Assembly: GCF_037975245.1 (NCBI RefSeq)
Contig: NC_092570.1
Location: 4,620,001 to 4,684,000, forward strand
Source: Apostichopus japonicus
Taxonomy: Eukaryota > Echinodermata > Holothuroidea > Aspidochirotida > Stichopodidae
DNA: 64,000 bases
Direction: 5' to 3'
Below the pieces are notes generated by a model. The model saw only the letters and a list, made by a program, of their open reading frames with translations. It had not been told where the DNA came from and did no database searches. Position 1 is the first letter of the stretch. Each line of letters begins with the position of its first letter. Positions 12,001 through 43,300 of this stretch are shown piece after piece. A program made the translations under genes and the position numbers.

Positions 12001-15000
12001 AGTGGTATGAAAATCGATCTCTACTATCTATGACCACCCCCTTCCCCTTCCCATCAAAATTTATTCCATGATCTGGTTGTCATGACGATGTGACACAAAA
12101 AGGTCACATACATAGCCAAACAAAATACCGAATGAATGAAATTCACTTCCATGCAAGTTTTTGGAGTAACATCTTTTATAGTAAATGAATTTTGTTCATG
12201 ATCTCAAGAGTTGAACACCAATGTACGTTGACAACCAAAAATGTTGGTCACTTTTGCAATGCGTAACCACGTGTACTGTCGTATTTTTGTGGGAGGTACC
12301 TCTACAGCTTGCTGCCACTGTGACTATGTTCTCTTTTGTTACTTGTTTCCTTAAACACTAATTTTATTTACTATTAATGTCCTAACACTTTGAACTTGAC
12401 CTTCATAAGTGATTAGCCCAGTTAAAGGTACACATCAGCTTCATCCGAAGATTTCAGCAAAACTTTCGAGAAATACTTTAGAACATCTATGAGATTTAGT
12501 CTTTGAATATTGTCAAACTTTGCGGGATATTCTGCCAAAATGATGTCGGACAAGTCTTTGCTGTTTATACAAAGTTTATAGGTAACGACGGTTTTGCTTC
12601 ATGTGATCAGAAATAAATACTACCTTTCCGCACTCTCAATAACGTTCTCTTTTCTCAATCAAAATAGAAACTTGTTTCCAGGAGTAAACAATTCATGAAT
12701 CTTTTCCATCTATTGCTTTAAAGTCCTTCCAGTGATCAGCAGCACAGCTGATCGAATTTCCTTCGGGACAAATTCATTAACCAATAGAGTCGCTCGCACA
12801 AAGCTATCTCAGACAAACATACAGTGTAAGTGATTGATAGGGCAGGAAATAGTTCAATTAAGGGAAAAGGTTGTCATGAAGAATGGTGGAACTGTGGCAA
12901 GATGTCTGCAGTTTGTGAACCTAATAGCTGCTGGTTGCATGTCATTACGACAGATTATGAAGCTGAATATGGTTCTTCCTGCCTTCCACTATCTTTCCTG
13001 CCCCCCTCGGCCCTCCCCACCCCACATCTTCTAACAACTAGTGCATTGCTTTATCTGAAGGAGACTAAAATGGGACATTGCTTCAGACTTAAAATGGTGT
13101 CATCAGCCGCCAGAAACTACATCCCTCAGTGAATATATCAATTCCATTAGTGCAATTTTCAGAAATTAAGCTCAATCTAAGAAAAAGGTGTCACAAAACT
13201 TTTGGATGCCTCGGGTCACATGTTGACGATTGATTTGAACATTAAAGGAGATCGATATTGGACTCAAATTTAAGCTAAAAACTGCTAGCATTTTACAAAA
13301 GTATTTTCCTTGAGGCTTCAAACCTACAAATTATTCCCAGCCACTGAGGATAATCTACAATAAAAAAATTGGCTCAGTGTAAGTTACTACTTTGAGAGTG
13401 GGAATGACATGTTCACTAAAACTTGAGCATTGTTGACCATTTATTTGACTTTCTAGCATATATACTGATGACCTTAAAAAACACATTCTCTCCATGTAAT
13501 ATACTCCTGTGACTGTTGCTAGGCAACATACTAAAAATACAGCTTGTGTGAAATAAATTTACAAGCACTATAAGTTTGTAAAGCACGTCAATCTACTTTA
13601 ATGACTATTTTTCATCAAAGAAAAGAAAAAGAAACATAAAGATTATGTTCAGCATTCATTAAATAATAGCTTCCAGAAGATGACCCAAACAAAAGACGCA
13701 TATCATTATTTTTGGACACAATTCATCCGAGTTTTGTATGAAAGATATAGATAAGACATAACAAGTGTCGTGCATTGTAGTTTCGGTTACTCTACAACAA
13801 ATAACTGCTGATGATTTGAAACCCTTTCACTAATAACTTTTACTAATAACTTGAAAATAAACCCCCTTTTCAGTTTCCCAACAGCCCTGTATCTCCTATC
13901 CTTCCAAGAAAATCTAATTCTTTGTTCCAGATCTCATTATTGATATGACAATTAAAGGAACAGATTCAAACAGAAGACCTCTGTAATTAATTGCACTCAC
14001 CGGGACAGTGTTAGCGGCTGCTAGAGACTGCATAAGCATCTGCCTTATTACCTCCAGATAATGGCTCTGTCTGTTACCAAAGATGCCTGGAAAATAGCTG
14101 CAAAGAGAAAATATGGATTTATTAATATTTACCCAAAATACAGGCACCAGGGCCCATTTTACAGAGGCATCCCGGTTATCCTTTTTTTTGATAGAAAAAT
14201 CACGGTAATAATGAAAAAAAATCCAAAGATTGACGATGGAAAGTGAAAGGTCCAGCGGCACTAAAACTATAGACAAAAAGAGGGAGGGTGGGATGGGGGA
14301 GGGGTGGTATGGAGAGGGGTGGGACGGGGGAGGGGTGAAGATTGTCCACAGTGGTTATGTGCAACAGCAGGAAAATTAAAGTTGGCATTCACATAGCCAG
14401 TTTCTAAAGGTAATTTTGTTAACCAGAAAAAGCCAATATGCTTAGGGCTACCCTGTGCTACATTTCAGTTATAACAGCAGTTAATATGACATTCATCTAA
14501 ACTTGCCATTTGGAGTCAACATGTTTATTAGCTTTACTTTACTTGTAATGGCAGGAAATGACCTTTTCACTGACTGAAAAAAACAACAGGGTTTCTTGAA
14601 CTCCGTAAGTTGTATCCATATATACCAAAATATGCAGTTCAAATACAATGGACTTCCTGTGGCATCATGTTTACAACCTTGCAACACATACACACCTATA
14701 CACACCTATACACACATGCCAAATAACTAAACAGTATGCAATAAGGGAAAAAAAAAATACCCCCAATTGGGATAGCAAACAAGATAATGTGAGTGACACT
14801 TCCAGGGATATGCTCAGGAATATTTGAGTGCCAGGTGGAATTTTGCGGTTGGTGTGACCCAGGTGCCGGGGTGGGGGGTCTAAGGGATGAGGTGGAAATT
14901 TGTTCCAAATGAAGTATGCTTAGATGGCAAAAGGTGCTATCTTTGTCCTATTCTGGAGCAAATTTCTTGGTAATTGTAAAAAAATGGTTAAATTAATCAT

Positions 15001-18000
15001 CAAAAATATTGCCGGTCAGGAACTTTAAAATACTGTTTGTGCTGGGCGGCATTCAGAACTGCGGAGAGCGGCCGCCAGTCTGCGCCCGGCACGAGCACAT
15101 CCCTGCAATTCACAAAACCTTGAAGAAAACAGAATGATTAAAAAAGTAGAAACTAACTTTATTAGGTAGAGTGCACTCTCTTTGTGCGCTATTTCATTGG
15201 ATGATCCACATGTGAAGAGAAATTGCAACACCTCGGGCCATCCCTGGGTACCGTAGTCATCTGGAAAATTAAAGACACAAATTTAGTTCAGCAAGCACTT
15301 CACATTTACAGGGCAATAACAAATTTAAACTTGAAAGAAAATCATTCTTACTCTACTGCATTGGACAAGACTGGCATGTATTTACTAACAGTACTGTGAT
15401 ATATTAAGGGTTGAAATTTGTGAAGTACAGTTTATAAGCCGAATTTGAAACACAATTCCTCTGTGTCCACAATGGGTGTGCATCTTAAAACTTAAGCCTT
15501 GCAAGACCAGATACACAATGCCCTGAAGTCAATTTAACATATTGCTCTACCCCCCTCATCCCATGCCCTCCTCCTCCACCACACAGATTACCACTAGCAT
15601 CCCACCTTTAACTCCTCCACATCCCAAAATATCATAATAATTCACATTAAAACTCAGCCTTCTCATCAAACTTGCTAGGAAGGCTACAAGTGGTCACCAA
15701 TGGCAATATAAAAAATAAAAAACAATATTGCTTCCTGGAGAACGAACCACAGGCAAATTTGATTCACTGCAATGTCTATGTATGTCTAGTTTTGATGGGT
15801 CACCAACTTTCCCCAAAAATGAAAAGCAATTTCAACAACAAAGCTGTAATTAAGTTCCAAAGCAGATATATTTTAAAGACTGACCTATGAGATTCCTGGC
15901 AAGTTCAGCTACAACGTCACACATCCTTCTTCGCACCAGAGCAATCTGTTCTTTCTGCACAGCACTCAGCAGCTCCCCTTTCCATCTCTCCTGTACGTTG
16001 TTCGGGAGCTCGGGCCAAAATTTCTCAAAGGATGAGAAGATCTGTCGCCTAAACAAGACAGCTCCCATTTGCCGACACTAATCAGAGAAGGAGACAGAAA
16101 TGTTGCCAGACACTTAAAAATAGAATGAATCAAAGGAAAGACACCATAGCACATATATAGGCCCTGCACCCTCTCTTTCATAGTTGACACTAACTCGTCG
16201 AACTAAAACATTAGCCACTCCTCTAATTGAGCTTCCTGTAAGTGGAAAAAAATGTTCTTAGATTAGCAGTCATTTTCCCCCAAACTATGAGACTGCAATT
16301 TCCAGCCTTTTGGCCAGTGCTACAACCAGTGAGACCACCCACTTCAAGATCAATCCTACGTACTTTCCAATTTCAAATATCGCCACCACCTTCACATGGT
16401 GTTGTGACATAAAATTTACAACTTCAGACTATGGAAGGCACAACTTGCTACGCTCGCAACGTTAGTGAAGTTGATTTGAAAATAATTTGTCTCTGATCAA
16501 GTATGGTCTTATTGTGGACATTTGATATCTTATAAACATTTTGCACTGTGTGTTAATATGCTCGCATAGTTGCATTGCTCCCAAATTTAGCTTGCATTTA
16601 GCTTTACAACTTTAAAGATTAGAACCATGTTTGATCAAATTCTTTTTCATTAATTAAAATTAAATCTAATTCTGCACAATGTCATTATAAGATATCATAA
16701 GTGTGACCAACTGGCAAAATTTCTGCACCTAGTGAGGTTCCAAAAATTAGATATTTTCAGCAATAATTTCTCATCTGTCTATCAAATCCAAATAATGTTC
16801 CTATGTTTGCATGTTTCATAAAACCAAACAACAGTTATTTTGACCATACCTCTGTTGGCAGATTGACATTTGTGAATGCCGACACCAGAAAGGTAGCCTT
16901 GTTGAGGGGTTGGATGTTTTCCAACGTTGCCTGTGGGAAAGGAATGGATGGAAATATGAGAACACAACCATTTTGAAACATCAATTTCAAATTTTTAAAA
17001 CAGTAAAAACAGTATATCTTTGCACCTGATGTCAAATTGTATATTACTATCATGCTCAGATGCTCCAATGTTGAGGAAGCAGGATTCCTCCAAAACTTAG
17101 GTCAAGAACGCTTCACTTTGGGGTTCAATAGTCTGATATATTTAAGCAAAATCAAGAATAATTTTTTCGCACATGAAGTGACATTTTCATTCTATGGAGT
17201 GTTTAGGCCTAGGCTAAAGCATATTCAGGATGTGTATTGGAAAGTTGGCTATTGCTTTCAAATAGTAATGGTACTGCCATATTTCTGTCTGCACAATTTT
17301 GGTGATTCAAATCAAGTTAAAACACAATTTTCATGTTTGTAACTTACAAGGCATAGCCAGCATAGAAGTTATGTGTGATGGTTACAACTGTTTTCAGTGG
17401 CTGCCATGTATCATCACCAACTTTCAATGTACCTTACTGAGCAAATGTATACCACATCTACAAAAGACTTAATTTTTTACGTGGTACATAATATGACAGG
17501 TTTGAAACACTGCAAATCATACTTCAAAAGTTCATAGTGCGAAATTTTGCATTTATGCAAAATCCAAGCATATAGCTCGGCTATGCAGTTTAAACCATTT
17601 TAGGGGAAAACATTTCACATTAAATTTGATAAATAACATTATTAACTATCATCAGCATAACATTTTTGTGCATATCTGTGTCATGTGCAAAGCAAATTCC
17701 TGTCGGGCGATTTTCTACTCTTGACATTTACTAATGTGCAATGCTCTCTTTGGACATGAAAAGGGTAATCAGTTGGAAAATGGGCATGTAATAACTAACA
17801 GTGAAAGTTGAGGCCATCTTGCAAATTTGATGTGACCTACATGGAATATCACTGGCCAAAGCATGACAGTACTAGTCTGGACTAGAACTGCTATTTGTAA
17901 CGTTCAGAATTACGTCGATACTGCCAACAGCAACATCACGACTACTACTAGAACTATAGTTAATACTGTGTGTATGTATAATACTAACGGCTATGGAAAA

Positions 18001-18243
18001 CTGTGTTATGGTCGAAACCCATGTGAAGTAGAAATACAGATGGCGCGAAACTTTTGGAGTTGATGTTGCGACACAGCAAACTTCCAATAAACAAAAAGGG
18101 TGAGTATAAAAGTGCATCATACCTACCGAAATTGTCCTTAAAAATTTAAATAATATATCACCTACCTCGGCCTTCTTTCTAATGTCTCCATTCTCGGAAA
18201 GAAGTTCACTAAGTAGTCTGTCGAATTGCTCTTGCTCCGCCAT
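1..18243 (-). CDS. IPO5: Importin-5 (karyopherin beta-3 / RanBP5), 22 coding exons, 3' end off the window
   Basis: Nuclear import receptor of the importin-beta family: a HEAT-repeat superhelix that binds cargo (classically ribosomal proteins and histones) and RanGTP and shuttles through nuclear pores. Exons read 5' to 3' on the minus strand: 18243-18166, 16930-16850, 16077-15885, 15260-15158, 14097-14001, 11419-11315, 10942-10817, 10414-10294, 9825-9631, 9139-9015, 8369-8280, 7657-7484, 6990-6772, 6040-5824, 5657-5439, 4890-4718, 3945-3834, 2817-2762, 2128-2006, 1480-1406, 609-465, 46-1. These join in frame to about 957 codons; vertebrate IPO5 has about 1,100, so roughly 130-140 residues lie beyond the left edge. 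Recognisable blocks are the start [87 protein letters not shown], the acidic [15 protein letters not shown] and [16 protein letters not shown]. The start ATG lies in an exon whose first 15 residues match the family N-terminus. Intron 12 has a GC donor and intron 15 is AT-AC (see findings). Transcribed divergently from the USP gene. Confidence 0.95.
1000..1130. repeat. Degenerate short repeat, IPO5 intron 20
   Basis: Repeated CACTACTTTA / CAGTGCACTAC motifs with spacing of about 20-30 bases. Low-complexity intronic sequence. Confidence 0.5.
1737..1790. repeat. G-rich low-complexity tract, IPO5 intron 19
   Basis: Runs of three or more G on the plus strand (C-rich in the IPO5 transcript). It could form a G-quadruplex in DNA; there is no evidence of function. 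Confidence 0.5.
4643..4682. repeat. (CA)n microsatellite, IPO5 intron 16
   Basis: Interrupted CA dinucleotide run of about 40 bases, downstream of the 4890-4718 exon in the minus-strand transcript. Confidence 0.75.
4891..5438 (-). other. U12-type AT-AC intron in IPO5 (intron 15)
   Basis: On the minus strand the exon ends in codon GAC plus one base, followed by ATATCCTTT, the minor-spliceosome donor consensus. At the other end TTCCCTTGAC (4910-4901) resembles the U12 branch site, and its presumed branch A at 4902 lies 11 bases from an intron end in GCAC. Joining gives ...[14 protein letters not shown], the same length as the vertebrate family in this stretch. The nearby GT donor (after 5422) with the nearby CAG acceptor breaks the frame. 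Confidence 0.85.
6073..6620. repeat. Tandem repeat, about 115 bp unit, about 5 degenerate copies, IPO5 intron 13
   Basis: Each unit contains GCAAGAGTGTTCTCTTTCTG, then CATCTCATGAGATGGAG, a stretch with ATTTATCTC, and ATTCATACAGCTCATAC. Copies begin near 6073, 6190 (shortened), 6285, 6406 and 6518. The CTCATGAG core is a small palindrome. No coding role is seen. Confidence 0.8.
6991..7483 (-). other. GC-AG intron in IPO5 (intron 12)
   Basis: The exon ending KIQE closes with CAGGAG followed by GCGAGT, and the next exon opens after GTAG with [12 protein letters not shown]. Both sides are in phase 0 and match the family across the junction. The only nearby GT, four bases downstream, shifts the frame. 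This is a standard U2-type GC donor. Confidence 0.8.
9237..9312. repeat. Imperfect inverted repeat (hairpin), IPO5 intron 9
   Basis: AACAAAAGAATTC near 9240 is mirrored by GAATTCTTTTGTT near 9296. Between them GGTCCTCGG...TGATTTC faces GAATCACCATGTCCTCG. Arms are about 35 bases around a very short loop. It could be a foldback or transposon relic. Confidence 0.65.
11420..14000. other. IPO5 intron 5, no gene recognised
   Basis: The longest IPO5 intron. I checked it for exons matching the missing-free importin alignment and none is needed: the flanking exons ending NTVP and starting IRMMAARAA join in phase 0. The short reading frames near 12830-13130 show no recognisable domain. No repeat stands out. 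Confidence 0.6.
14276..14340. repeat. G-rich (GGGGAGGGGT-like) tract, IPO5 intron 4
   Basis: Repeated GGGAGGGGTG motifs on the plus strand. In the IPO5 transcript this is a pyrimidine-rich stretch about 180 bases before the 14097 acceptor. Possible G-quadruplex. Confidence 0.6.
15036..15108. other. Small GC-rich patch inside an AT-rich IPO5 intron
   Basis: About 70 bases are strikingly GC-rich, including GCGGCCGC (a NotI site) and CCGGCACGAG, within an AT-rich intron just downstream of the 15260-15158 exon. No exon or known repeat is recognised. Confidence 0.5.
16931..18165. other. IPO5 intron 1
   Basis: Phase-0 intron between the exon ending IRKKAE and the exon starting ATLENIQ. Apart from short chance reading frames I see nothing in it. 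Confidence 0.6.
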
Positions 18244-20187
18244 GCCGGTGTGCTACTGTGAATAATATTTTGCAATGTTGCCGAGTGCAATCTTAACTTC
18301 CTGTCTTCAATTTTGTGTTCGGTAGAGTTAATGCTAGCAGCAGTAATATAAAATATTAAGAAATATATAACTGTCATATAAGGACCGGAAAAATACCTTT
18401 TTTAACAGTCTCGTATTCTATATAAAGTTTTTATATTGTAATTTCGACTAATTAGACATGATATCTCTTGTTCACACTGTCTTTAAACTACCATTATTGT
18501 ATTACACATGTTATATGAAACTGTGACAGTGAACTTTAGAAAATCATTTGTGGCGCTGTTTAAAATAACATGGCGGAAAACACAGTTGATAGGTGAACTC
18601 CGACCCTTATGCACAAACCGAACGTAAGTAAAATCTCAGCAACACTGGCGCTTACGGAGTTCATATTTTATTAATCAAGTGTTTCGTAAAACAATTACTC
18701 TCAATTCTTGGTGGCTGCGAACAGTTCTCTTTGTTTGATATCCGCCCACGTGATGTACTGTAATAGTTGTATTTGTTTCCGCGTTAGGATATAACTTAGG
18801 CCTGAATGTTAATACTAGTCTGAAGTCTGAGTCAGTACTACTACTACTATGAGTATTACTAATTATTAGTATTAGTAATGTATACTGCGCCGTGTACTAG
18901 TACTACTTGGCATAGGCATAAGCTGTTTAGTACTTAGCCTATACGTATTATGTTAGACCTATGTTATTTCTCACAATACGATGCCCAGACACAGTCAAAA
19001 TTTCTGACATATTATTCAAACTTCCTAGTGTGAACTGTACTACTCTAGGCCCACACTCCACAGTACTACTAACACTAGCAACTATGAGTATGATGCCAAT
19101 GCTTTTACTAGTAGTATGAGTACTTGGCCTGCCATACCACTTTTTTCTTTACTAAGGCCTAGGCTAGGCATTCTACTAAAGTACTAGGAATTCGTAAGTA
19201 AGGCTTAACTGTAAGTTAGACACTAACTTAATCCTTGGGTTGGTTCCTCTTTCCTACTACTACTAGTGAGAACTTTAGAACTCTATAGAAGTACAGAAAT
19301 GGAGAAATTTAACCTCTCTTCCTATCATCACTGCATGATAAGATGGTCTCCTAAATGGAGGTGTAGTAAATTGCAGTAGGCCAACACACATGTAACTTTC
19401 AAAACAAACTAACAAAGTCCTCCTCATACGGAACAAACAAGTCAAGAGATTTGAAACTCATGAGCATAAAAATAGATCGACACATAGATCAAAACATTCA
19501 AGGTCCTTTCCCGTAATCGCTCTGTCATACATTCTTTCATTGTTACTTTTTTTCGATATTAAATTTACTGGGTTTGTTTTACGTTCAGAAAAACAACTTG
19601 TCTCTCAAAGCCTAGTCAGTGTTACTGATTGTACAAGCCTTGCCTGGGTAAACTGTAGACACTGCTAACAAACATCAGAATAGTGTCTGCAATCATCTTA
19701 GCAAGAATCCAAGAACATTATACTTACTTCTTGTATGTAGTAGACTGTCTTACATATTCCAGTAATAAATTAGTAAACAGCACATATTCACTTGTGCAGA
19801 CATTTGAACAAAATATGTATATATGTTATTGGCATGGCTGATATACAATTTAAGACATTTTGTGAATGATAAGTTACGACAACCGTTATTAGCTATTCAT
19901 GAGAATATTGTATCAGGTTTAATTTGGTCAATAATGAACGTTCCTATCTTAATATTGAATATTACAACAATTCTAACAATTCAAAAACTCATGAAAGAAA
20001 GAAGGCTTGATATAAGCTGGTGTTCATCCAAAATCATCACTTCAGAAGTCTCATCCCACCTCCAGCTCTGCTTCACCCTGCCATGCACCCCCCCCCCCAC
20101 CAAATTATTCAGAATATTTTCAAAGGGTATCATAGAGGAGGCAGTGTAGTCCACTTGTGAGAATTATTCTATGATTTGTCTTTTCAG
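18244..20187. promoter_or_regulatory. Divergent promoter region between IPO5 and the USP gene
   Basis: IPO5 starts leftward at 18243 and the USP gene reads rightward from 20279, so this interval should hold both promoters. An ETS-like CAGGAAGT (minus strand, 18303-18296) lies just upstream of the IPO5 start. AACATGGCGG at 18567-18576 matches the YY1-type motif often found at housekeeping promoters. GTAAGTA at 18624 could be the donor of a non-coding first USP exon, paired with the strong acceptor TTGTCTTTTCAG ending at 20187. The 18830-19270 part is rich in ACTACTACT and ACTAGTA words. No TATA box is identified. Confidence 0.45.
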
Positions 20188-20278: not shown

Positions 20279-23200
20279 ATGGAAGAAGATAATGAAGCCT
20301 TGGTAAGCTTGTTGCAGTCGGCTAGCACCAGCAGTCACAATATGGATACAGAAGTCATGGATTTCATGCCAACAGAGAGTGAGCACGGCCACGTGGGCCC
20401 CATTTATGGGCCTCATCTTCCGGGCTTAGAGGCTGGTAATAGTGTTGATAATGGTGAGAGAATGACAAGTTGAATCTAATTGCTAATATTACAAAATAAA
20501 TAACAATAACAAGCCTTTGTATATAAAACCTTGGCAAAATATGTCAAAGGTGAAACTAATTTTAGATTATGGATTATAAAGTGGCCTATTTGATATAATT
20601 TCCATTTTTCACTGTATCATGAATTTGGAGAGCTTTAGTCTCATGACACAGAACGTTTTCAAATGATTGTCTAAATATACTTCAAGGAATGTAGGTTATG
20701 CATGTTCAGTAAATCAAATAATGTTTGGTTGTGCAGTGATCTGTCATATGTTTGTGTTATCATGTCAGTCAAATGTTTGACTTTTGTGTTATAATCATTT
20801 GTTTGTGTTTTATACCTTATGATTTTTTGTTATCTCTCTGATATCTAGCTCCGGCTAATAGCCCGGTACCGCACTCCTTCATGGGCTATGATGAATCAAC
20901 CCCTGGAATTGCCACCGATATCAAAGGTAAAGTTTCATCATTTTGAGATCTTTCACTTCATTTTACAAACATTCTACCACCACAGAAACTGGGTAAAATT
21001 TCCCTGAGAAGGTTTGTCAAGCCGGTGAACAAAAACTAACAAATTGAAAAAGAATGTCACCATTTTATTGATCTTTTTAGTAGGAATTGTAAAGATACAG
21101 TATGTCCCATTCCAACATCACAACATACTTGTACAGTCTTTATGCTACATTTATATATATTAAGTAATTACATTAATAGCTAAATTCTTTATGAACTAGG
21201 ACATTGTTATCCTGTCTAGTTATTACTCCTTAAAGTATCTGTATCATTCTGCTCATTCAACTTGTATTATATTTTTCATCTTTTACCAGGGTATCTTCTA
21301 CTCTGTTAAGCCAATTCAGGCTTTATAGAAGACTTCCTTTCACATTGTAAGTTTGTTTGTTAATGATAAAACAAATCAAACAAAACTCAAATAAAACAAA
21401 CTCTCTCCAGATACACAAACAAGGTTTGCTTCGCATCGCCTATTGGTCAGATCCTGTTCTCGCAGCCTTAAACTAAGAAAAATTAATATATAAGGGGAGA
21501 GAGTGCAAAAAGTTTCCTGAGTGTTTTAAATCGATAGACATGAATTATTTACACTTCTTTCCGCAGACCCATCGGTGCAACCTGGACAGAGTGGACTTCA
21601 GAACATGGGAAACACTTGCTTTATGAACTCAGGGCTACAGTGCCTCATGCATAATTCATATCTATGTCATAGTCTCCTAGGAAACTGCAGTTTCCCTCCA
21701 GAAACACTCACAGGACGGTTTGTCGAACTGCTGACCAAAGTTTGGGAAGGCCAATACGCTGTCCTACATCCGTCAGAATTCAAAGAGAAATTAGGCGTAG
21801 TGCACGGTCAATTTAAAGACTTTCGTCAGGTTAGTAACATTCTTACAATTAAACTCCGTCCAATTTATTGCAAAACTTTCACAACAAAACACTTCATCTA
21901 AACATTTCTCGAAGTCTTTATATTACATGAACAAGTTCAATATTAAGACCATACTCCAGCAAAGAGCAATCACGAAGACAGGACGTTGTTGAACTCCTTG
22001 TTAGAAACTTGGCACTTTTGTCTACTGAGTAACTATTTTCCCTCCTTTGTTTCAAACTGGCAATAAAATTTTGTCATGTTTTCATTCAGTATCGCATCTA
22101 CCATCTCGAGGGCATTGACAGGGAATAATGAAGTGTTCAAATTTCTGTGTAGCAGTCTTGACTTGTACATAGCAATGTGTCCATTCTGCATAGCATATTG
22201 CGCTGCCATAAATTCGTCCCCGAGGCAGTAACAAAACATGAGGTAAAACGTAATATCTGTTTCTCATTGCAGCACGACGGCCAAGAATTTCTAGCTCTTC
22301 TTCTGGACTCACTCCACCAGGAGTTAAATTGGAACGCAAGACAAGGGAAGGTCGCTTCCCCCGCCACGGACGTATCCGAAGAATCCGATGATTCCCACTA
22401 TGCTTCAGAGGCGTCCTCCTCTAAACTGAGCGAGTTGGAAGGTCTGGAACTGGATTCGGTGAAGGAGGAACCCATCAACAATCATACCTCCGCTGCACCG
22501 TCCAGCGATAACGAGGCCTCGGGGTCCGGTGTGGATAACGGGCAGGCCAATGCGACGGATAAATCCAAGGACTCCGTCCGTCTGCCGAGTATAGAAGAAT
22601 TCTATATGAAAGACGTGAAAACTTTGAACACGAACATGCTGCAGGAGAATGAGGTCACTTTACCGCTAGCCACCGGCAGTGACAAATTCCCCAAGAAGAA
22701 ATCCTCCAAAGCAGAGAGGCTTTCTCTCAAAGGGAGAACTGAAAACAGTTTCCAAAAGTCTCCGGTGAAGAATAAAAAGACCAACGTGATAGCCGCCAGG
22801 AAGTCCAGGTCCCACGGTTGTCTGAACAGCAAGTCGAGAGACGCTGCGCTGAACACGCTGGAGTGCTCCTCGAGCACCGACGAGAAGGAGAGCATCAAGA
22901 GGATGAAGTTGGACTCCGTGGACGCGGACGCAATATCACTCGACAAACCGTCCAACCTAGTGTCGGCGAACTTTCACGACTACGTGGTCAGGGGTTCGGG
23001 GGACGACAGTGCAGGGTACGACAGGGAGGTGGATCAACTAGGGCTGGAAACGCTGAGCCGTAGGTTGAAACACGAGCTGGATAGCAATTCTCAGGGCTGC
23101 GACTCGTCGGCTACAAATCTTTCAAAACCATTCCCAATCAAAAACGAAGACCTAATCGCCAAGCTGGAAGACCTACCCTCCAGCACCACTAGTGCCAAGA

Positions 23201-26200
23201 TCATCAAACGGGTCGGCGCCCTCAAGGAGGAGGTGGAGACGATGACCACGACTGTCAGCATGGTGGAAGGCCCCCAAAAGAATCTGGAGTTCATACCGAA
23301 TAATAAAGAACATCTGTCGTCGCTGCAGTTGGAGAAGCCCTCGACCAGCATCGAGAAGAACCAGGAGGGAGAGAAACAGTGGGATGATTACCTGCGGAAT
23401 AACGAATCTGTCATAGTGGATAACTTTCACGGCCAACTCAAGAGCACGGTCAGTATTGCGCTGCTATGTTCACAGAAATAGAGGAAGCCGGGATTTTTAC
23501 AAAGCCCTTAAGGCTTGCATGTTAGTTAGAAAGGGATCAAATTTCTTTTCAGTTCCTTCAAAATTTTCAAAGTCAACCGAGATAGAGCTTTGTAAGCAAT
23601 GTAATGAACATTTCTAGTGTGTAGCATGGTGGGACGAACAATGGCGAGCTTCTTTAAACTGGTAGTTTTTTACTAATTGTCCAATTAATTCCCCCAGAAT
23701 AATTATTTCATCATAATATTTTTACAAAAAAATGCAGATGTGTCAGCCACATGCACATCTATAGTTAACATAATTTTGATTAAAAATCTGATCATCTTTG
23801 TGAACGTTGAAAATATTGTGGCATTTTGTTTGTATTTTGTTTGTATCTCACAGACTACGTTAACGAACGGAAATGGCTTGACTCACAGACTATGCCCCAT
23901 TTTTAATTGTCACGTGTCGTGCGGTAGTAAGAAATCAAGAATGTTGATATTTTTTTCATTTCTTTCCGTTCCTGTGCAGGTTATTTGTAATGTTTGTGGG
24001 CATGTATCCATCATTTACGAGCCGTTTATGTATCTCTCCGTGCCTTTACCGAGAGCCATGGAGAAACAATTTGGTAGGTTCCATGACAAAATGTTTCAAT
24101 ATGTTTCTTGTTTTTATATGTTCCCCTTTTTAAAGCAAATCTCAGCTTTTTTTTTTTTTTTATAACTTATAGTCATCAACCGATGAATAAGATTCTTTTT
24201 AACCGTAAAACTGTGGATTATTATTCTTGGGGGGCAAACTGATGAATGGATTGTGTACCAAATTTAATCTCTACTATAGTTTAAGCAGAATGATGACTTA
24301 ATTTTTTTCCTTTGGAGGGGGGGGGGGGGTTAGTGTTGATATGAAAGTTTATAACTTGTATGTGTGTGGGTGTGGTTTGTTCAGAATCATAAACATGATT
24401 GAACAGCAGTCGTGGAAAGCACTAGGTTTAAAATTGTAGTAATGATATTCAACCTTTCAAACAATGTATTTTCTTTTGTTAGTGGTCACTTTTGTAAGGA
24501 GTCATGGTCAAACACCCATCAGGTACGCTGTGGTCCTCAATAAGACCGACACGGTCACTGAGCTGAGGAGAACCCTTCTCTATACTCTGTACGGTGAAAT
24601 CTCTGGAAGAGAGATTGTCCTGGCAGAAGGGTTAGACTGTCACATCTCGAGAGTGCTGGTGAGTCATCTTCTTTAGTTGTTGTTATGCAAATTAGATTTT
24701 TGTTATGCAAATTTAGTTGTATCGTGTCATCGTGCAACCAACAGCAGAAGTTTGTAGAATGACAGACACGAACCATAGTTTAGTGATGATGTTGCTTTAG
24801 TTGTTGAGACTTAGAATATCAGTTCCCAAAGTTTGTCGCTCCTGTCTTCAGCATCATAGGTTGGTTTCAAATCAGCAGTTACAAAGAGTGGCATTGTTCT
24901 ATAGGACAAAGGAAAAAGAACAAAAGACATTGTGATGTTAGCTGTTCAGAGAGCTCTCAATACTGGTAGAATAGAAACTGCAATTGTCATGCTAACAGCT
25001 TTAAAAAATTCCGTTGGATAATTCTGTTGCTCATGTTTAGAATGTGTTTATCAAAATGTAACATAAGACTGACAAAAGCTGTTTGCTTCAAGATACTCCT
25101 GCGTGCGAGGAAATTTTACACAACACAGGGGTAAATCAATCATCACATTATTTTGAAAAAGAATTATCAAGTTAACAGAAGGAAGATTTTCTGTCCCTGA
25201 ATGTTTTCCCTAAATGAGGGGAAAAAATGGTAAATTTTTCTTTTCTCTGCTTCTTATCTGTCAATAGGAAGACAGGTTGCAACTCCAGTCTGTTGACAGT
25301 GGGTTTCGTCTCATCTATGCCTTTGAGATCGACTATAAGCCTTGCATCACCGTGCCGTTGACCTCCGACCTTTCCAATGGGACCACTTTATCCGTCGACA
25401 TCAGTCAGGCCGCAGGTTACGGAGGAACGGATTCCTGCACGATATCCTCTACGTCCGACTTTGCTGCTCTCGGCTCGTCTCAGTATGTCAGTCCTGGTTT
25501 TGGATTTGGTAACGAATGGGACTTGCTGGGGTCAGAGGTCACAACCTCTTCGTCGGAGGAGGAGAAGCAGAAGATTGCGAGCGGGAGTAAAGGTGAAGCG
25601 AGCGCTGCCGTGGTGGAGCCGGACAGTACGGTGAACATCGGTCAGCAACAGACAGAGGAGGGCGATGATGATGTTTTCAGTAATATGACAACATTCGAAG
25701 TGGATTCCTTGGAACAGATAGACTCAGGCCAGGCAAGGGCAAATACTGCAACCAGCAGCAGCATGGTAGTAGAAGATGCATCAAATCTAAGCAAAGGAGG
25801 ATTGCAGGAGCAGGGAGAAGAAGCAGAGGCAGGGAATGGAGATGGAGATAAAAATGAAGTTCCTTCCTCCCTTGCACCATCTTCCTCCAAGGATACAGGT
25901 ACTAGCTCGGATCCTGCCCTGGCAGGGGCGAGTAGCTGCCCACCTGGGCCGGATCCTGCCCTGGCAGGGGCGAGTAGCTGCCCCCCACCGGGGCCTGATG
26001 ACGATGACATCAAGACGGAGGTGGGTGATCAGGGACAGATCAGCGACGTCAAGGACGAACTTAACGCTAACTGGCACGTCTGCGTGATATGCTTGGAAGA
26101 AATGCCCAGTGACCAATTACTGATCCATGCCATCTGCCAGGGAAAGCTCTGTCACCAGTGCGTCAGCGTGAGTCATGAAAATAGTAAATTATAAATTAAC

Positions 26201-29200
26201 GTTTGTACATTAGTGTCGTAGTGAACTAGTTACAGTTTTGTGGTTAGACGTCTCACATGAAAAGCCTTGTGTCTGATTATCCAGCCAGATTGGTCTGCCT
26301 CAAATTTGTTTCTCCTCCCTTGCATGTACACATGAGCTGAAGATGAATTAGTAGTTATCTGCATCAAATGTTGCCAAACTGTTTTCATTTCAGAACCGGC
26401 ATACACTTTTAACTTATGCCCACAACCATCTCGTAGAAGAGAAAAGTCTGCACCTCGGCCAGTCGGAGATAACTCCCTGAAAACACATTCCATTTAAATT
26501 AAACCGCGGAATCACAAATATTATTACATCATCTCTGCAACATTAAGTGACAAATGAAATTCATTGCGTTACCTTTTCTCGTATACCATAATCAAAATAA
26601 CTTGTTTTTATGGAAGTTAACGGATGGCTGTGTCATAGGGAAGATCCCAAAGGTAGATTGGGTTTTTGTTTATGTTTAGGTTGTGGATTAATAATTATTG
26701 ATTCGGTTTAAGATTATTTCAATTCCTTGGCTTCCTCAGAATAAGAGAAAGTTTGTACCGAAGACTAAGGCTAAAAATCGGACCTTTTTACGATAAGCTT
26801 TTTACAGCTATGGAAATGGAAGTGCAACCACTACAAGGCAACCATTAAGTTAGGCCTAGCATGCCAGATGTCTAACTTGTAGATTATTTTCATTTTGCAG
26901 AGAATAAAGAAACTTTACAGTGAAGACTTCATATCCTGCCCGGTGAGTGTTTTAAAAAAATTTAAGCAAGGCATCAATGTAAACATCAACTTTAATATAT
27001 ATATATATATATTAGCAAAGATATGATTAGAATGAAGAAGTGTCCCAAACAGAAAGGAGAGGTCTTGTTTCATTTGTGGGTTATTTAATGGTTGTCTGGA
27101 GCTGCCATTTTCTGATGTGGAAGTGCTGACACCTTGGTGTAATCTATTCATATGTTCATGATCAAATGTATACTGTGCTATATATACTTTAAGCAACAAT
27201 AGCATTGTCCCATATCTACATTTTTGAATACCTCATCGACAACTTTTCACCCTGGAAAGCGATTTTACTAACCCGTCCTTGGTATTCTATTAACTATACC
27301 GATGGATGGCTAGGTTTGGAACTCCCTTAAGAAAATCATCCACATGTAATAGAATTCCCTTTTAGGGGTATGTTCATTCATCGTGTTATCTTGTTTTTAT
27401 CATTCACTAATTCATTCACTCATTCAATCATCCATTCACTCATTCATCTATTCACCCAGTCATCCATTCACTCATCCATACATTCACTCAGTCAATCATC
27501 CATTCATTCATCCATACACTCATTCAACCATCCATACACTCATTCAACCATCTGTTCACTCATCCATTCATTCAACCATCCAATCACACATTCATCCATT
27601 TATTGCTCACCCATTCCTCCATCCATCCATATGCTCATTCAACCATTCATTCATCCATCCATTCACACATTCATCCATCCATTCATACATTCATCCATTA
27701 ATTCACTCATTCATCCCTTCACTCATTCAGCCATCCATTCACTAATCCATCCATTCACACATCCATCCATTCATCCATTCTCTCAATCATCCATCCATTC
27801 ACTCATCCAATTACTCTTTCACTCATCCATCCATTTGCTCTTCCATTCTATCAATCATCCATTCATCCATCCATTCACCCAATTACTCATTCATCCTATT
27901 ACTCATCCATCCATCCATTCACTCATTCATCTATTCACTCATCCAATTATTCATCCATTCATCCATTCTCTCATTTATTCACTCATTCATATATTCAATC
28001 AATTATTCAGTTTCTTTATTTACTCAGTGAGACTCTTTTGCTATATCTCCTTACAGGTGTGCCGTGCTGACATGAACCCTGGAACTGATTTCGTACCCAT
28101 GATGCCATCAATCAGCTCGCTCCCTTACCTTCGAGTTCTGCTGCTTCCTGTGCAATTCAGAAACGAGTGGGTCGAAAACGGAGAGAGAAAGGTAACAATT
28201 TCACTTTGTCCTGAAACATCTACAAACCAAAGTTTTAATAGATTTAGGCTTTCAATGAATATCTACATTTGGATATCCGAGAGCTGATATTGAAGACAGT
28301 GTGTGGGTTGTGCCCTCATCTTTGAGACCACCACACAACCCTTAAAAAATATCAGCCCTATATGGCAAAATACTTGGATCAAAGTTTTGAGTCTTGCACC
28401 AGATGAAAATACACTCCTTTTTAATATACTAAGATCTACCTTAAGTTTCAATATGCTTTGAGCACATTCAGCCCATCGTGTGAGCTTTTCACCCCTCCTG
28501 CCCCCTCCCTCCCCCCTTGGGAAATAACCAGTTTCAGATTCATCCCTCTATTTCCACTCAGTTACTATGGAAGCAGAGTGCATACTCACTACCAAGAGTT
28601 GTATCATATGTACCTATCGTCTCCTCATTTCATTCCTCCTACCCCCACCCCCCCCCCCCCCTTGGGAGATAACCAGTTTCAGATTCATCCCTCTATTTCC
28701 ACCCAGTTACTATGAAAGCAGAGTGCATACTCACTACCAAGAGTTGTATCATATGTACCTATCGTCTCCTCTTTTCACCCTTCCCCCCCCCCCCTTGGGA
28801 GATAACCAGTTTCAGATTCATCCCTCTATTTCCACCCAGTTACTATGGAAGCAGAGTGCATACTCACTACCAAGAGTTGTATCATATGTACCTATCGTCT
28901 CCTCTCTTCATCCCTTAGATGATGCTGTTTGGTCATCCCAATGTCCTCTACATAATGAACAAAGTCAGCGGTGACGATCTCTTCTCCCAGCTCGAGAACA
29001 TAGCTCCCGTCTCAGCAGACTTTGCTGTAGCGCTCACTGATAGCCAGGTCGGTACCGCTCATCTCTAATATCTAGAAAAAAAAAGTCGTCAGTGCTTTGA
29101 CTTTCATATTGAAAGCAAGAAAATTTAGCTTGACATGTAAAATAAGGTCTTCTGCGTGTAAGATCATATAAACGAATGAGCCAAAGTATTGCCTTGTCTT

Positions 29201-32200
29201 CCAACATGTTTGCAATATTTGGGTTTGGAGGCATGGCATCTTCGTTTAAGTCCTCTTTCATAAGTATGTGAGCAAATCACAACTCATGCATGATACAGTG
29301 TTCACTTCTCGGTCTTTTGGTTAAGATCATGTGCAGCATTATGTTCCCCTTGTAGGGGAATCATGATACACACTGGACCATGATCACACAATCACAGTCT
29401 CGATGCAAGGGGGCCAGAGATTGAGAGCGGATCTGTCGTTTGGTTTTTTGTGCACAGGTTCTTTCATGGGTGACTTTCCTTAGAAAGCAACCTGGGCCTG
29501 ACTGCTATGTTTATACATAGTTGTTCACAAAATGCAGAAATATGATTTTTGCAAGATTGTACGAAATAAGTTTCCTCACTATGTCATATCCAATGCCCTG
29601 CCTAATCTCAATTGTACCCTCCTATGTGTACTGATTCTTCTGTTTTCTAAATTTACCGTGTTCTTAAAAGAAAAGAAGAAGAAGAGAAAAAGTAGAAAGC
29701 CATTTTCTCCTCATCTAAGACAATCAATTTATCAATTTTTCTTGTTGTAACCTTAAAGGGAAGGCGCTGCTCCAGATGTCCGTACGACCTTCAGTGTACG
29801 GGTTGTCATCTGGCCCGAGAGGTGGACATCACCCTGTCTCCGGACGACCACCTGACGGTCTGTTTCTACGACCTGACCCTACAAGCAGTGGAGGAGGCCA
29901 ACCGTTCCCTGGACCATGAGACCATGGACCATCTGGAGAGTAACGACCCCATCACATTACAGGACTGCTTTAGAGCTTTCACAGCAAGGTAGGCTGCAGC
30001 ATAGTAGTGGTGAGACTTGGAGTAGGTGTGGGAGGGTCAGGTGGGGGGTGGGGTGGGGTTGTTTCACACGACTAGGTAGGGAAAGGCGTATGTTGGTGGT
30101 TTGTTAAGTATTTTGTACAGATTTCACTTCTGTTTTGACCATGTAACCTACCAGGTAAATAATTATCAATAATAAATAATTATCAATTATTATCAATAAT
30201 TATTCAATAATCAATAATAAATAATTATTATCAATAATTATCAATAATTAAATAATTATCAATAATATATAATCAGGTAAATAATTACAACAGATGTCGG
30301 TATTTGGTAAATGTTTTATCGAGAGTGAAATGTTGTCCAATTTGATAAACTTATTATATTAGAGCAGCCCATTCATATTACACTCCTTGTTGGCCATTGA
30401 AACAACCAGTTGATTATTTCTTCACACTTTCTTCAGTGAGGAACTGGACGATAACAACCCCTGGTTTTGCCCAGAATGCAAGAAACACCGGAAAGCCATG
30501 AAGACCATCGCTATTCAGAAGTTTCCCAACACGCTGATCGTCTACCTCAAGAGGTAAATTACAAACCTTCTGCCAGGATTTTCTTCTTATTCCACCCTTT
30601 CGACCAATTGCAAAATTCTCCTCCATGGTTTAAACTCCAAACTAGCTCGTAGGAGAAGGAGGTTAGGAGAGCGATCGCCTTAGTTGTTTCAGCCGTTAAT
30701 GGAATGATGCTTACCATCGGTTCAGCCACTGTTTGTATCAATCGATCAAGCATCTAGCCACTGTATAGATGACTCTATGAGTTAGGAACTTGTACAGTTA
30801 CAAGCTTCGGAGAGTCTTGTCAGCTAATGATGATGGTAGTTATGTTAATAAATAAATAATAAATATGTCATTTATGTAGAGTTAAATCACATAAAGTATC
30901 AAAGTGTTTCACAAGAAACAATAAAAAGGAAATAAATACAGTGAAAACAAATAATAACCTAATAAAAATAATTTTTAAAATACCAACACAAAAAAGTAAA
31001 ACAATAAGAGGTTATTAAAAATACAATAGGAGGTTATATAAAAAACATTAGGAGGTTATAAAAGTACAATAAGAGGTTATAACACACAAGAGATTATAAA
31101 AAAAGTAATATTACGTAAAAATAACTTTTAAATAAATACGTCTCCAAACGACATTTATATATTGGCAGCGTTGGACTGGTCCTAATGTGGTCCTAATGTT
31201 GGACTGGTCCTATGTTGCGTCCATGCTATCACGAACATACTAGCAACTCACCTGGAACTCAGCACAAGATATTAGTATTGTTGTCACATTTGGATGTAAA
31301 GAATGAGAAGCCAGTCAGCTATGATATATAATTCAATCTTGAGGTATCAATATTCCATAAAGTGTCCTCCAACAGAATCCATACTAATTTCTTTCTCAAG
31401 CCTCCTAATTACAGTACATGCTAGTGACAGATTTAAAAAAGTGGGGGGGGGGATTGAAGGGGGGAGACTGCTCATAGCATTACTTATAAAGAGAACTTTT
31501 ATACAACAAAAAGCAACAGAAACACTGTAGTTTGTAAGATTTTGTATTTCTGGTTAAGATTTGAGTAACAACTTGATTGTCCAAGTTTCCATAAGTTTTG
31601 TTACCTTTTAAGGTATATATGTTTATAATGGGATTTTTCGTTTGTTTTTTTCCCTCACTGTAGATTTGTATTTCACCAGTTCACGAGTACAAAGCTTGAC
31701 AATAAAGTTCACTTTCCGATTGAAGACCTCAGTTTCTCAGAATTCATGAGTCCTGACTGTTCATTGGTCTATGACCTTCAGAGTGCGGTCTGCCATTTTG
31801 GAGGTATGTTCATCGAAACGACATCCAACACAGACTCTTCAGATAGGAAGTTAGATTCCTTGTTTTTGGTTGTGAAATTACTGTCTTGAAAGTTCTGCGT
31901 ATGTTCTTGGGATGGTGCATAAGTTCATACTTTTGTTACAGAGGTTTATCTCTACAATTTATTCAGGCCAGGGTTCTTCAATAATAGGGTTGTTGCAATG
32001 CAAGATTTTCCACATCGATGTATCTTCAATTTGTTTCCCCCACCCCCCCATAAACAATATTATCACCCACCCCCATTTCTGTCTCCTATCGCAATGAACA
32101 TTCATTTCCCCGTTTCAGAAGTAATTTTGTTGCTAGCAGGCTGTGTGATTCATGTTGTGATTTATTATCAAATTAATTTGCTTTTATCTTTTAAACGTCA

Positions 32201-33210
32201 AGTTTCGTGTTTGTGAGTCTCGGCTTAGATATTGCGATATCGTTGAGGATGGTTTGGGCAGACAATATCAGGAATGAACACTCATATTGATATATACATG
32301 GCCTACCATAGCAACAACACTATCCCGTAACCGACTCTTTTCATTATTGCAGGCGTCAACGCTGGCCATTACACCTCCTTCGTTAGAAACCCCATCACCG
32401 ACTCCTGGCAATACTGCAACGACGAAACCATCGAAGAGAGAGCGCCCTCGCTGGAAGATGCAGAAAACATCTACATCTTGTTTTATCAGAGGAAAGGTAA
32501 AACCACAGAGACTGTTAAAAAGAGGGTGAAATACTTCAGCAAGACTGCTGCAGCCTATTACTTGTGCAAAATATTTCCTGCCCATTAAAAAGAGTCTTGA
32601 TATGAAATTATTTTGTACAAAAGTTTTTTTTTTTTTGCATGACAGAGGATAGACCCCCCCCTACGTCCCAGTCATAATAGCAATTAAATTGTAAATTTGA
32701 AATGAAATAAAGATGTTTACAGAGCAGCACGTGGATTGACTTCTCAGAAGCAAATAAAGTCTGTCTTTGGTTACATTGTTAGCCCAGCTTTTACTTAGTC
32801 CCATGTTGTGATTGGCCATTGTAAACTCGGCTATATGAAGCAATCAGCAGTGATATGGTCGATTACTCCTCATCAGATGTCGATGCTCGCATCAAATTAT
32901 AAAGGCTTCTGGTTTGTCTGCTCCTCCTTCAGATACTGTTCTGCCTTTCAAACTTCCGAGACCCATCAAACCTTCAGAGCCGTTACCATCATCCCCCTGC
33001 AAAGAAGTGGAACAGTCTCCAAGCCCCATGGACGACCAGTCGCATTACTCTAACAGCGAGGACATCAACAGACTGCTGGCCTCGCTGAACCAGGAGGAGG
33101 CCACTACACCAGCCCCGACGACGGTGGGAGTAGAAGCTGTACAGGTGAAAGATTCGATGGAGGTGCCAATGAACAGTAGTCTAGAGGCACGATTGAGAGA
33201 ACTGGACTGA
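20279..33210 (+). CDS. Ubiquitin-specific protease (peptidase C19) with an inserted RING-like module, 15 exons
   Basis: Cysteine protease removing ubiquitin from proteins. Exons: 20279-20453, 20849-20926, 21567-21829, 22273-23448, 23980-24073, 24483-24658, 25268-26167, 26901-26942, 28057-28191, 28919-29047, 29759-29988, 30437-30553, 31664-31803, 32353-32496, 32933-33210. All join in frame to about 1358 residues. Cys box SGLQNMGNTCFMNSGLQC gives nucleophile C102; HDGQEFLALLLDSLH follows. A low-complexity acidic insert spans about 205-540. The USP zinc ribbon pairs are C567/C570 (ICNVCG) and C1144/C1147 (FCPECKK). VSIIYEPFMYLSVPLP and RRCSRCPYDLQCTGC (1058-1071) resemble USP4/15 and USP32/6 respectively. 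The His box NAGHYTSF gives H1224; WQYCND supplies N1241/D1242. Residues 926-970 form a RING-like module. N-terminal DUSP or UBL domains of USP4/15 are absent: only about 84 unstructured residues precede the Cys box. The exact orthologue is not assigned. Confidence 0.92.
25910..25996 (+). repeat. In-frame duplication in USP exon 7
   Basis: Two adjacent units of 42 and 45 bases encode DPALAGASSCPPGP and DPALAGASSCPPPGP (residues about 869-897). The first 33 or so bases are identical, suggesting a recent slip or unequal exchange in a disordered linker. Confidence 0.85.
26043..28074 (+). other. RING-like cysteine module inside the USP, split over three exons
   Basis: Residues C926-x2-C929-x14-C944-x4-C949-x2-C952-x14-C967-x2-C970. 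The fragments are HVCVICLEEM, ICQGKLCHQC and SCPVCRADM. Spacing fits a RING finger with seven of eight zinc ligands. The usual histidine (C-G-H-x-x-C) is glycine (C-Q-G-K-L-C), though H941 lies nearby. It is encoded by the end of exon 7, the 42-base exon 8 and the start of exon 9. Confidence 0.75.
27373..28027. repeat. (CATT/CATC)n tetranucleotide array in USP intron 8
   Basis: About 650 bases of imperfect CATTCATCCATCCATTCACT repeats ending about 30 bases before the exon 9 acceptor. The array stays open in the frame of exon 9, giving an artificial reading frame rich in His, Ile and Ser. The clean splice sites around it argue it is intronic. Confidence 0.9.
28500..28918. repeat. Three tandem copies of a 134-146 bp unit abutting the USP exon 10 acceptor
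   Basis: Each unit runs from a poly-C stretch through GATAACCAGTTTCAGATTC and ACTACCAAGAGTTGTATC to CCTATCGTCTCCTC. The last copy provides the pyrimidine tract and TTAG acceptor of exon 10 (28919). The other two lack this AG. Confidence 0.85.
29301..29479 (+). mobile_element. SINE-like repeat with a U2 snRNA-like head, copy 1 (USP intron 10)
   Basis: The first 45 bases align by eye at about four fifths identity with the 5' end of U2 snRNA (CTTCTCGG, CTTTTGG, TAAGATCA and GTTC landmarks in order). The body (GATCACACAATCACAGTCTC, GAGCGGATC, AGGTTCTTTC, GGGTGACTTT) recurs at 59440-59570 and 60291-60466 on the minus strand. A non-autonomous retroposon is the best reading. Confidence 0.75.
30140..30290. 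repeat. AT-rich tandem repeat (AATAATTATC units), USP intron 11
   Basis: Imperfect tandem copies of AATAATTATCAATAATTATT-like sequence. Confidence 0.8.
30840..31130. repeat. AT-rich repeats with AGGAGGTTATA motif, USP intron 12
   Basis: Several copies of AATAGGAGGTTATA or AATAAGAGGTTATAA in an A-rich context. Low-complexity intronic sequence. Confidence 0.65.
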
Positions 33211-40345: not shown

Positions 40346-43300
40346 TCAGAAATCACTCAAATCGAGGTCATCGTCGTCATCAAAATCAGTGACGGATACC
40401 GTGGAGGTCTTGTTTGTTCCTTTAGTGCTCCCATGAGCAGAATTAGCTGTTAATGAAAAGAAAGTTGAAAATGTATGGGTTGATGCCACTGTCATAAATT
40501 GATATATTATCAATCATAAATATTCACTGATTGATATTTAAATTTCGGTTATTATTCAAATTTTTTAAACTTTCCCTCAGATATCGGTGATCCGATCTAG
40601 GAGGAAAACACTCATTATTAAACGGTTAATAAATCTGTTCACACTTTGTTCTCAATTGGTTAGGCTGACCAGCCTACCGTGAGAAAAACATTAACTGTGT
40701 GTCGGATCCAAACAGGTTAGGTCGAACAGCCTACAATGATATAAACAATAAAAGCCACATATATTTTTCTTGAGCTTAGGCAGAAAGACAGCAGGCTCTC
40801 AAAGACTGTATTTCACAATTTTAAGGCTTGATAGCCCATTTGGCAGAGCACAGAATATGTGCTCTAAGAGGCTTCCAAGCCGCACTCACATATCATAAAT
40901 GTTCCTATTTATCTTGGGTATAAAAATTTAAGAAGAAACACTAACTACGAGTTGAAGAAAGTTCTGACCTTTATTTGATGACGTTCCCCAGACACTTGTT
41001 CCGTAAGTATTGCTTGCATCAGAGTTAGGCTGACCTGGGTGCGGTCGACTGGAAAGGAAATGGTTTCACCAAAAACGGTTCATCAAAATTGGTTTGTGAT
41101 CATAAATTTATCAAAACTTTTGATGAAATTAATATGAATTTAAATTTGTTAAAATAGCTTGATGCCTTGCACAAGTTCCACTAAATGTAAAAGTACAAAA
41201 TTAGCATAGAAATATAAGCAATTATTTTCACCTATATCATCTGAAATGTTTTTCTGTAGTAAAAAGAAAACAATTTCATCCATTATACATTTTAAGAACA
41301 GATTGAAAAAAAAAACTTGATAAAAAGAATAAATAATAAAATAAAACTGTTAGCAAACTTATCCACTAGAGAGCCAGTGTAAGAGAATTTGTAAAAGTAA
41401 GTTGTCCTGAAAAAAAAACTAGATACAATTTTTTTATTTTTAAATAATGATTTGTTTTTTTATAAAACTCTTCAGTTGAGATTAGAACAAAGAGGAATAC
41501 CACAGGTAAGAACCAAGACAGCAAAATAGACATACAGAAAGTTAAAACAGACAATTACAGATACAGCCAAATCACAGTTCAGTTCAGCTTGAAGTTAGAG
41601 TAATATCACATCATACAGGAGGAGTCAAGGACTCAATTTAAGTACTTCAGAAACAGTCAAAGCAGTATGTAAGTAACTTCACCCTTTTCTTTCTCTCTTA
41701 ATTTCTTAATCACTGCTTCGACGATATTTACAAGTATTTGTTCTCTTCACTAAAGTTTTTATCTTTTCACTTCACAATTGGTTCTGGCCACCACTTCTGA
41801 TATTTAGTTTTATATTTTATTTAAAAAAATATATATTTATGCTCTTTAGTGACGGCCTAGCTTTTCCCTACATTCAAATTTAAAAACAAAGAAATTGTAC
41901 AAGAAATAGAATTACTTTGATCCCGCAGGTTGACTCCTGGTCTGTTGCTTGGGCGGAGACGAGATGCTTCCATCCAGAGATGAGATCGCTAAACTATCAT
42001 CGGATTCTTCTCCAGCATCAGGAATCGTCTGGATGGGAAAAATGAAATTAGTTTATTGGGATGAAAATTATTACCATTCACAGCAAGAAAAGGGACAAAA
42101 TTTTGTAACCATAAATTAAAAAAACTTAAGTGGTCTGATAACTTTATATTCATATAAATATTTGGCAATGTCACTCTCTAGAAAATCTGATATTCCAGTC
42201 ATTCCATTTAATTATTCAACAATGGTGGTTTTCTGCAAATTCAAGAGACCAAACACTCAGCGATAATTAAAACAGGAATTTTGCTGGGTGTCGGAGGGGT
42301 TTCTGAGTGTGTATTCTGACCTAACTGATAACATCATAAGATCACAGGCAAAAGTGAAGATTTTATTACAATTCCAGGAATATCTTATGTCGACCTACTC
42401 TGTACTTGGCTTCTCTTTAACAAGTACAACACAAGAAACACTATGGGTTTGTATGAAAAATAAAAAAATAAAAAGGAATATCCTATGAATCATTTGCAGA
42501 ATGTATCGCAAAGTGGAGCTTTCACCGCCACCAGTCGGATGGCCAGAGATGAGCGGGATGTGATACACAACCTGGCAGAGGGAAGATCTTTTAAGATAGC
42601 AATCTGTTAGATATAAGATTCAACATTACAGCTTCCTAAGCAAGTAGAATGAGGACAGAACACTCTATTTGTTCCCCCTCCCTCCCCCCACCCCTCTCCA
42701 TCCCTCCTCCTTTTCCCCATTCCCACAACATCAACTCTGCCAATTTTATTTTATCTTAATATTAACAAACTATTTCTTGATGAAACTCACAGGTATCCTT
42801 GGAGACGGAGAGGCAGTCCTAGGGTCTGGGCTACGAGCACCATTTCTTCCGGTTCCACTGAGATCTATCCCACCCACAGGCTTCTTTGTAGAATGTCTGC
42901 CTTGGAGCTGAGCTTCAATACTCTTTGACAACTCTGATACCATGGGACCCTTTTGAATGCAAGGTAAAACGCGTCATCAAAACAAAACAAATTATGATGC
43001 GTAAGGGCATGTCAGATATTGTTGCTATGGCAACTGTCGTAAATTTGTTTTTCAAATAAACTCGTTTATACCGTTACCATAAATTATTCATTACAGATAA
43101 AGCAAGTGATCCTTCAATTGGAGTGAAGGAATTTTCTATTTAACTATAAATCAAGTTTGATCCGTCTTAAATCCACTGCAGTGTAATTGTTGTTTTGATT
43201 TACAACGTAAGACCAAAAGTTAATCACACGTTCTGTTTTTAACATATAAGGAAGCCAAAATTCTGCTTGCAGAGCAAGTGTAAGAGTTATTGTTACAAAG

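Follow-up and report, generated by a model that had tools for sequence, protein, structure and literature searches.

Our analysis of a 64,000-nucleotide stretch of genomic DNA (hereafter the window; G000:C10:4620001-4684000), probably from an animal to judge by its genes, supports the presence of a predicted USP-type deubiquitinase that carries, between its Cys and His boxes, a RING-like finger short of one zinc ligand. The predicted gene comprises 15 exons on the + strand of the window (20279-33210) and encodes 1,358 residues in one open frame. As the earlier note had claimed, the Cys box (C102) and His box (H1224) enclose seven cysteines spaced like those of a RING, and this spacing did not arise in any of 20,000 shuffles of the protein; the additional claim that the core RING histidine is replaced by glycine was borne out by Gly946, encoded by the codon GGA.

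Gene model and catalytic domain

The exon ends of the 15-exon model were set by hand and, with the ends so placed, all 14 introns display GT-AG borders with consistent phases. The start codon is preceded by an in-frame stop, the first exon (20279-20453) and the 5' end being provisional, and neither of two ORFs upstream of the gene had a Pfam match at E up to 0.1. We scored the splice signals in a leave-one-out manner against the gene's own sites and compared them with the AG and GT sites of the 20-34 kb stretch. The acceptor of exon 8 is the best of 14, with only 0.44% of 904 AG sites scoring as high, and the donor of this exon is strong (1.1% of 809 GT sites score as high); the donor of exon 7, with C as the last exon base, has the lowest score of the 14 (19.8%), and weak acceptors were found at exon 2 (63.5%) and exon 11 (27.4%). 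Every junction from 6/7 to 10/11 is in phase 0, and exons 7-10 are therefore each symmetrical, an arrangement that would permit exon gain or frame-keeping skipping, neither of which is proven.

Pfam UCH matched the protein in two stretches (5.2e-51), as expected of a UCH/USP catalytic domain. The Cys box (GNTCFMN, with Asn97 and Cys102) is encoded by exon 3 (21567-21829), as aligned to solved USP11, USP4 and USP15, the QHD box (residues 172-174) by exon 4 (22273-23448) and the His box by exon 14 (32353-32496), with His1224 and Asn1241 assigned by alignment; the third triad residue, Asn1241, and the oxyanion residue, Asn97, were both placed by alignment position. The roles of Cys102, His1224, Asn1241, Asn97 and the QHD box are those that we presume these places to have in a USP. 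Alignment also placed the first pair of the USP zinc finger (CNVC, 567-570) in exon 5 (23980-24073) and the second pair (CPEC, 1144-1147) in exon 12 (30437-30553). Exons 2 (20849-20926), 10 (28919-29047), 13 (31664-31803) and 15 (32933-33210), also with hand-placed ends, complete the model together with the insert exons described below.

Among solved structures, the closest match of both catalytic halves is human USP11 (6e-33 and 6.6e-34); next come USP4 and USP15, and after them USP8 and USP2, considering the best 60 of 88 matches for the second half. USP19, USP32 and USP31/43 are absent among the matches listed (40/40 for the first half, the best 60 of 88 for the second), and the ranking of relatives is limited to that extent. 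Judged from its sequence, the window protein is a relative of USP4/11/15/19 that looks like an active USP and should cleave ubiquitin.

The insert and its RING-like finger

The two halves of the USP zinc finger are separated by an insert that begins with a UBL-like stretch and an acidic linker, continues with the RING-like finger and a post-RING segment, and ends with CxxC pairs. The UBL-like stretch (residues ~596-680; 24483-25345) occupies exon 6 (24483-24658) plus the first part of exon 7 (25268-26167); it matched Pfam USP7_C2 weakly (0.0079, under the curated cut-off), and its start aligns with a USP19-like gene of the same genome. No solved UBL matched this stretch, solved USPs being matched only by the finger part of the query. 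The acidic linker follows in exon 7 (residues ~681-925; 25346-26080). The earlier note had described both linkers as acidic; this description suits the second linker (residues 680-920; 17.8% D/E, 3.7% K/R) but hardly the first, the long linker that follows the QHD box in exon 4 (residues ~193-540; 16.7% D/E, 13.8% K/R). A tandem repeat of ~22 bases (25914-25983) codes for part of the linker ahead of the RING and repeats a PALAGASSCPP-type peptide.

The finger is coded by three exons: exon 7 supplies C926, C929, C944, G946 (in the His place), C949 and C952 (26081-26161), exon 8 (26901-26942; 42 nt, flanked by two phase-0 introns) supplies C967 and P968, and exon 9 (28057-28191) supplies C970 and, in the linchpin place, Arg971, before continuing into the post-RING segment. 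Skipping of exon 8 would thus disrupt the RING while leaving the frame intact. Repeats occupy parts of introns 8 and 9 (27400-28001, 28501-28905): a long microsatellite of the ATTC/ATCC type and 2.9 copies of a 133-base unit in tandem. No solved chain resembled the post-RING segment at better than 1.1. The CxxC pairs (1060/1063 and 1069/1072; 29768-29806) are located in exon 11 (29759-29988), where the insert ends; visual inspection made a kinship with a CRGC segment of a USP32-like protein seem likely, but we did not retain it as the two could not be aligned by BLASTP.

The spacing of the finger, C-x2-C-x14-C-x-G-x2-C-x2-C-x14-C-x2-C, is that of a C3HC4 RING whose histidine has given way to Gly, such that seven of the eight zinc ligands of the cross-brace order are present, with Gly946 at the fourth place. 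A pattern comprising the RING spacing, with loops in their customary ranges and place 4 left free, was found in 0/20,000 shuffles of the whole protein as well as in 0/20,000 shuffles of residues 591-1120. With the 72-residue finger segment as query, Pfam zf-RING_2 matched at 9.6e-6 (26.2 bits), 1.1 bits short of its curated cut-off of 27.3, and zf-C3HC4_3 at 6.3e-5, also beneath its curated cut-off; with the whole protein as query, the zf-RING_2 match drops to 0.0018. When a histidine was put at 946 in silico, the zf-RING_2 score rose to 30.6 bits, and hence the shortfall of the finger is attributable to the lost ligand; removal of exon 8 lowered the score to 15.4. As the GGA codon is three base changes away from a His codon, one erroneous base would not account for Gly946. 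In nine shuffles with the cysteines fixed, zf-RING_2 was never matched (0/9), other RING-named models appeared in 3/9 (0.028 to 0.7), and the best match of any kind was an unrelated model at 0.0011, and values near 1e-3 are for this reason unconvincing on their own. The identity of the finger as a MYND or a B-box was considered and rejected, as no MYND or B-box model matched at E up to 1.

The best solved matches of the finger are the RINGs of TRIM5 (7.9e-4) and RNF38 (9.4e-4), both at about 1e-3. In comparison with RNF38, Ile928, Pro968 and Arg971 occupy its hydrophobic, CPxC and final arginine places, while differences reside in the Gly substituting for the His ligand and in Ile956, which, in the alignment read by eye, takes the place of the tryptophan of RNF38. 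The available excerpt of PMC13061254 describes an E2-binding place, to which Ile928, just ahead of the second Cys, corresponds, and a linchpin place, to which Arg971, next to the final ligand, corresponds; by its sequence, the finger agrees with what that excerpt terms a dRING, i.e. a degenerate RING with altered zinc coordination.

Relatives in the same genome and in the literature

We searched the genome (671.6 Mb, 35 contigs) with the window protein and obtained at least 22 matches with 39 of 47 candidates scored, 11 on its own gene and 11 at six other places; many further USP pieces are present in the genome (91 matches). From similarity and known motifs, we take the six other loci to be USP4/15-like, USP19-like, USP32-like, USP31/43-like, USP8-like and USP2/21-like. 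On shared columns, identity with the window protein amounts to 52.3% for the USP4/15-like, 51.2% for the USP19-like, 50.0% for the USP32-like, 46.6% for the USP8-like, 45.8% for the USP31/43-like and 40.3% for the USP2/21-like protein. A tree of the seven USPs of this genome (the window protein and the six others; 172 columns, with rows stitched from tblastn pieces under lax limits) joins the window protein to the USP19-like protein at a support of 0.479, too low to fix its placement. Since the six relatives exist as separate genes, we regard the window protein as one more member of this group.

With the finger region as query, the genome yielded 3 matches, all on the own gene, and the genome search brought up no separate match for the 42-nt exon 8. 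The USP19-like gene harbors a MYND-like finger (0.0025, under the cut-off; 25/39 positions, at an exon end), the one feature behind the six labels that a family search supplied, positioned after the start of the UBL and ahead of the second catalytic half. A scan of viral contigs returned 3 pattern matches and no relative. Our literature search, covering CC-licensed papers and judged by the titles and starts of abstracts of those listed, found no USP with an inserted RING, and the available excerpts of an arthropod ubiquitin survey and of a USP32 review make no mention of a RING insert in a USP.

Discussion

Known USPs provide precedents for parts of this arrangement. According to the available excerpt of PMC9842591, the catalytic domain of USP19 bears a UBL and a MYND finger, and the window protein resembles it in having a UBL-like stretch and a RING-like finger inserted in the catalytic domain; they differ in that 1) the finger of the window protein matches RING models, with no zf-MYND at E up to 1; 2) no CS domain is listed for the window protein; and 3) the USP19-like gene is a separate one. 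USP4, USP11 and USP15, the best solved relatives of both catalytic halves (for the second half among the best 60 of 88 matches), have, as a counterpart of its UBL-like stretch, a UBL in the insert, which in the excerpt of PMC12718135 lies with a disordered segment between D1 and D2. In contrast to the window protein, however, no zinc finger is described for their insert in that excerpt; moreover, the 1,358-residue model gave no match to the DUSP that lies upstream of the catalytic domain in USP4/11/15, a further 5' exon being possible, and a USP4/15-like gene occurs separately in the same genome. CYLD, as described in the excerpt of PMC13061254, likewise has a zinc module inside its USP domain, but this module is a B-box rather than a RING, the window finger has no B-box match at E up to 1, and CYLD is absent from the solved matches listed for the two halves (40/40 and the best 60 of 88). 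With the MYND finger of USP19 and the B-box of CYLD as precedents, the slot for such an insert is known and a RING there is the unusual part; UBLs and zinc modules recur as inserts of the USP fold.

By analogy with the inserts of USP4/11/15, USP19 and CYLD, we favor the reading that the finger probably serves as a docking arm for an E2, an E3 or a RING partner on a live deubiquitinase, a view we hold with moderate confidence. We surmise that the finger would adopt a RING fold in which zinc site 1 is intact, and that zinc site 2 (C944, C967 and C970, with no His at 946) would be either weakened or completed by another residue, e.g. His941. The linker would hold the finger close to the active site and, once this docking arm had bound one of these partners, the protease might thereby trim chains at their place of building. 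In our view, the UBL and MYND inserts of the relatives may steer substrates in a like manner. The excerpt of PMC12718135 reports that the UBL in the USP11 insert steers this enzyme to K48 chains and that the UBL insert is without effect on chain choice in USP4 and USP15, so steering by inserts is not general. Counting against a docking role, the Pfam scores of the finger, of the UBL-like stretch and of the USP19-like MYND all fall beneath curated cut-offs, shuffles can give chance matches near 1e-3, and Ile956 stands where RNF38 has its tryptophan.

Alternatively, the finger may be a working E3 that binds E2~ubiquitin, with the protein both building and trimming chains, as the earlier note had suggested, be it as ubiquitin editing or as self-ubiquitination checked by its own protease. 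Retention of Ile928, Pro968 and Arg971 is in keeping with such activity, as is the statement, in the excerpt of PMC13061254, that RINGs with altered zinc coordination, some of them short of a zinc site, may retain E3 activity; however, one zinc ligand is gone, Ile stands in the tryptophan place of RNF38, and the B-box of CYLD displayed no E3 activity with 16 E2s according to the same excerpt. We regard a ligase as rather unlikely, albeit with a real chance given the retained E2-facing places. Because a ligase RING also docks E2s, our confidence in this reading overlaps with that in docking.

We are equally doubtful that the finger is a mere structural or dimer-forming knot of the long insert, devoid of contact with an E2 or E3. 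The missing ligand and the long linkers on both sides would suit a knot, and the excerpts of PMC9842591 and PMC13061254 describe other USP zinc fingers as interaction modules or as lacking E3 activity, but a knot leaves the retained E2-facing and linchpin places unexplained. A bolder proposal, which we deem improbable, is that of a distinct USP family with a UBL and an E2-binding RING built into the catalytic domain, in which one chain would both conjugate and remove ubiquitin, with the in-frame 42-nt exon 8 as a splicing switch that turns the RING on or off. Lastly, a chance pattern or gene-model artefact, in which cysteine-rich pieces of three exons were wrongly joined, might be read from the lowest-scoring exon 7 donor, the shortness of exon 8 with no genome match of its own and the hand-placed exon ends, but is very improbable given the absence of the RING spacing from the shuffles, the best acceptor of 14 together with a strong donor at exon 8, and a CP|VC pair completed exactly over the exon 8/9 junction.

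A RING within the USP fold would link deubiquitination directly with the E2/E3 machinery, and the insert would offer a natural test of docking vs. chain choice vs. conjugation as the role of such inserts. Should the RING be active, the protein would be a single-chain ubiquitin editor that arose via insertion into one domain and not by fusion of two.

Neighboring genes

A likely gene on the - strand (43000-53021), presumably DZIP1, encodes a C2H2 finger with coiled-coil-like sequence after it; the zf-C2H2 model matched at 0.0011, under the cut-off, with better low-complexity matches on the same ORF. On the other side, an importin-like gene is located on the - strand (295-18252), with Importin_rep_4 matching one of three ORFs scanned at 5.6e-18; from its N-terminus, we take it to be importin-5. 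This gene and the USP gene are arranged head to head, their starts lying ~2 kb apart, and the two may share a promoter region.
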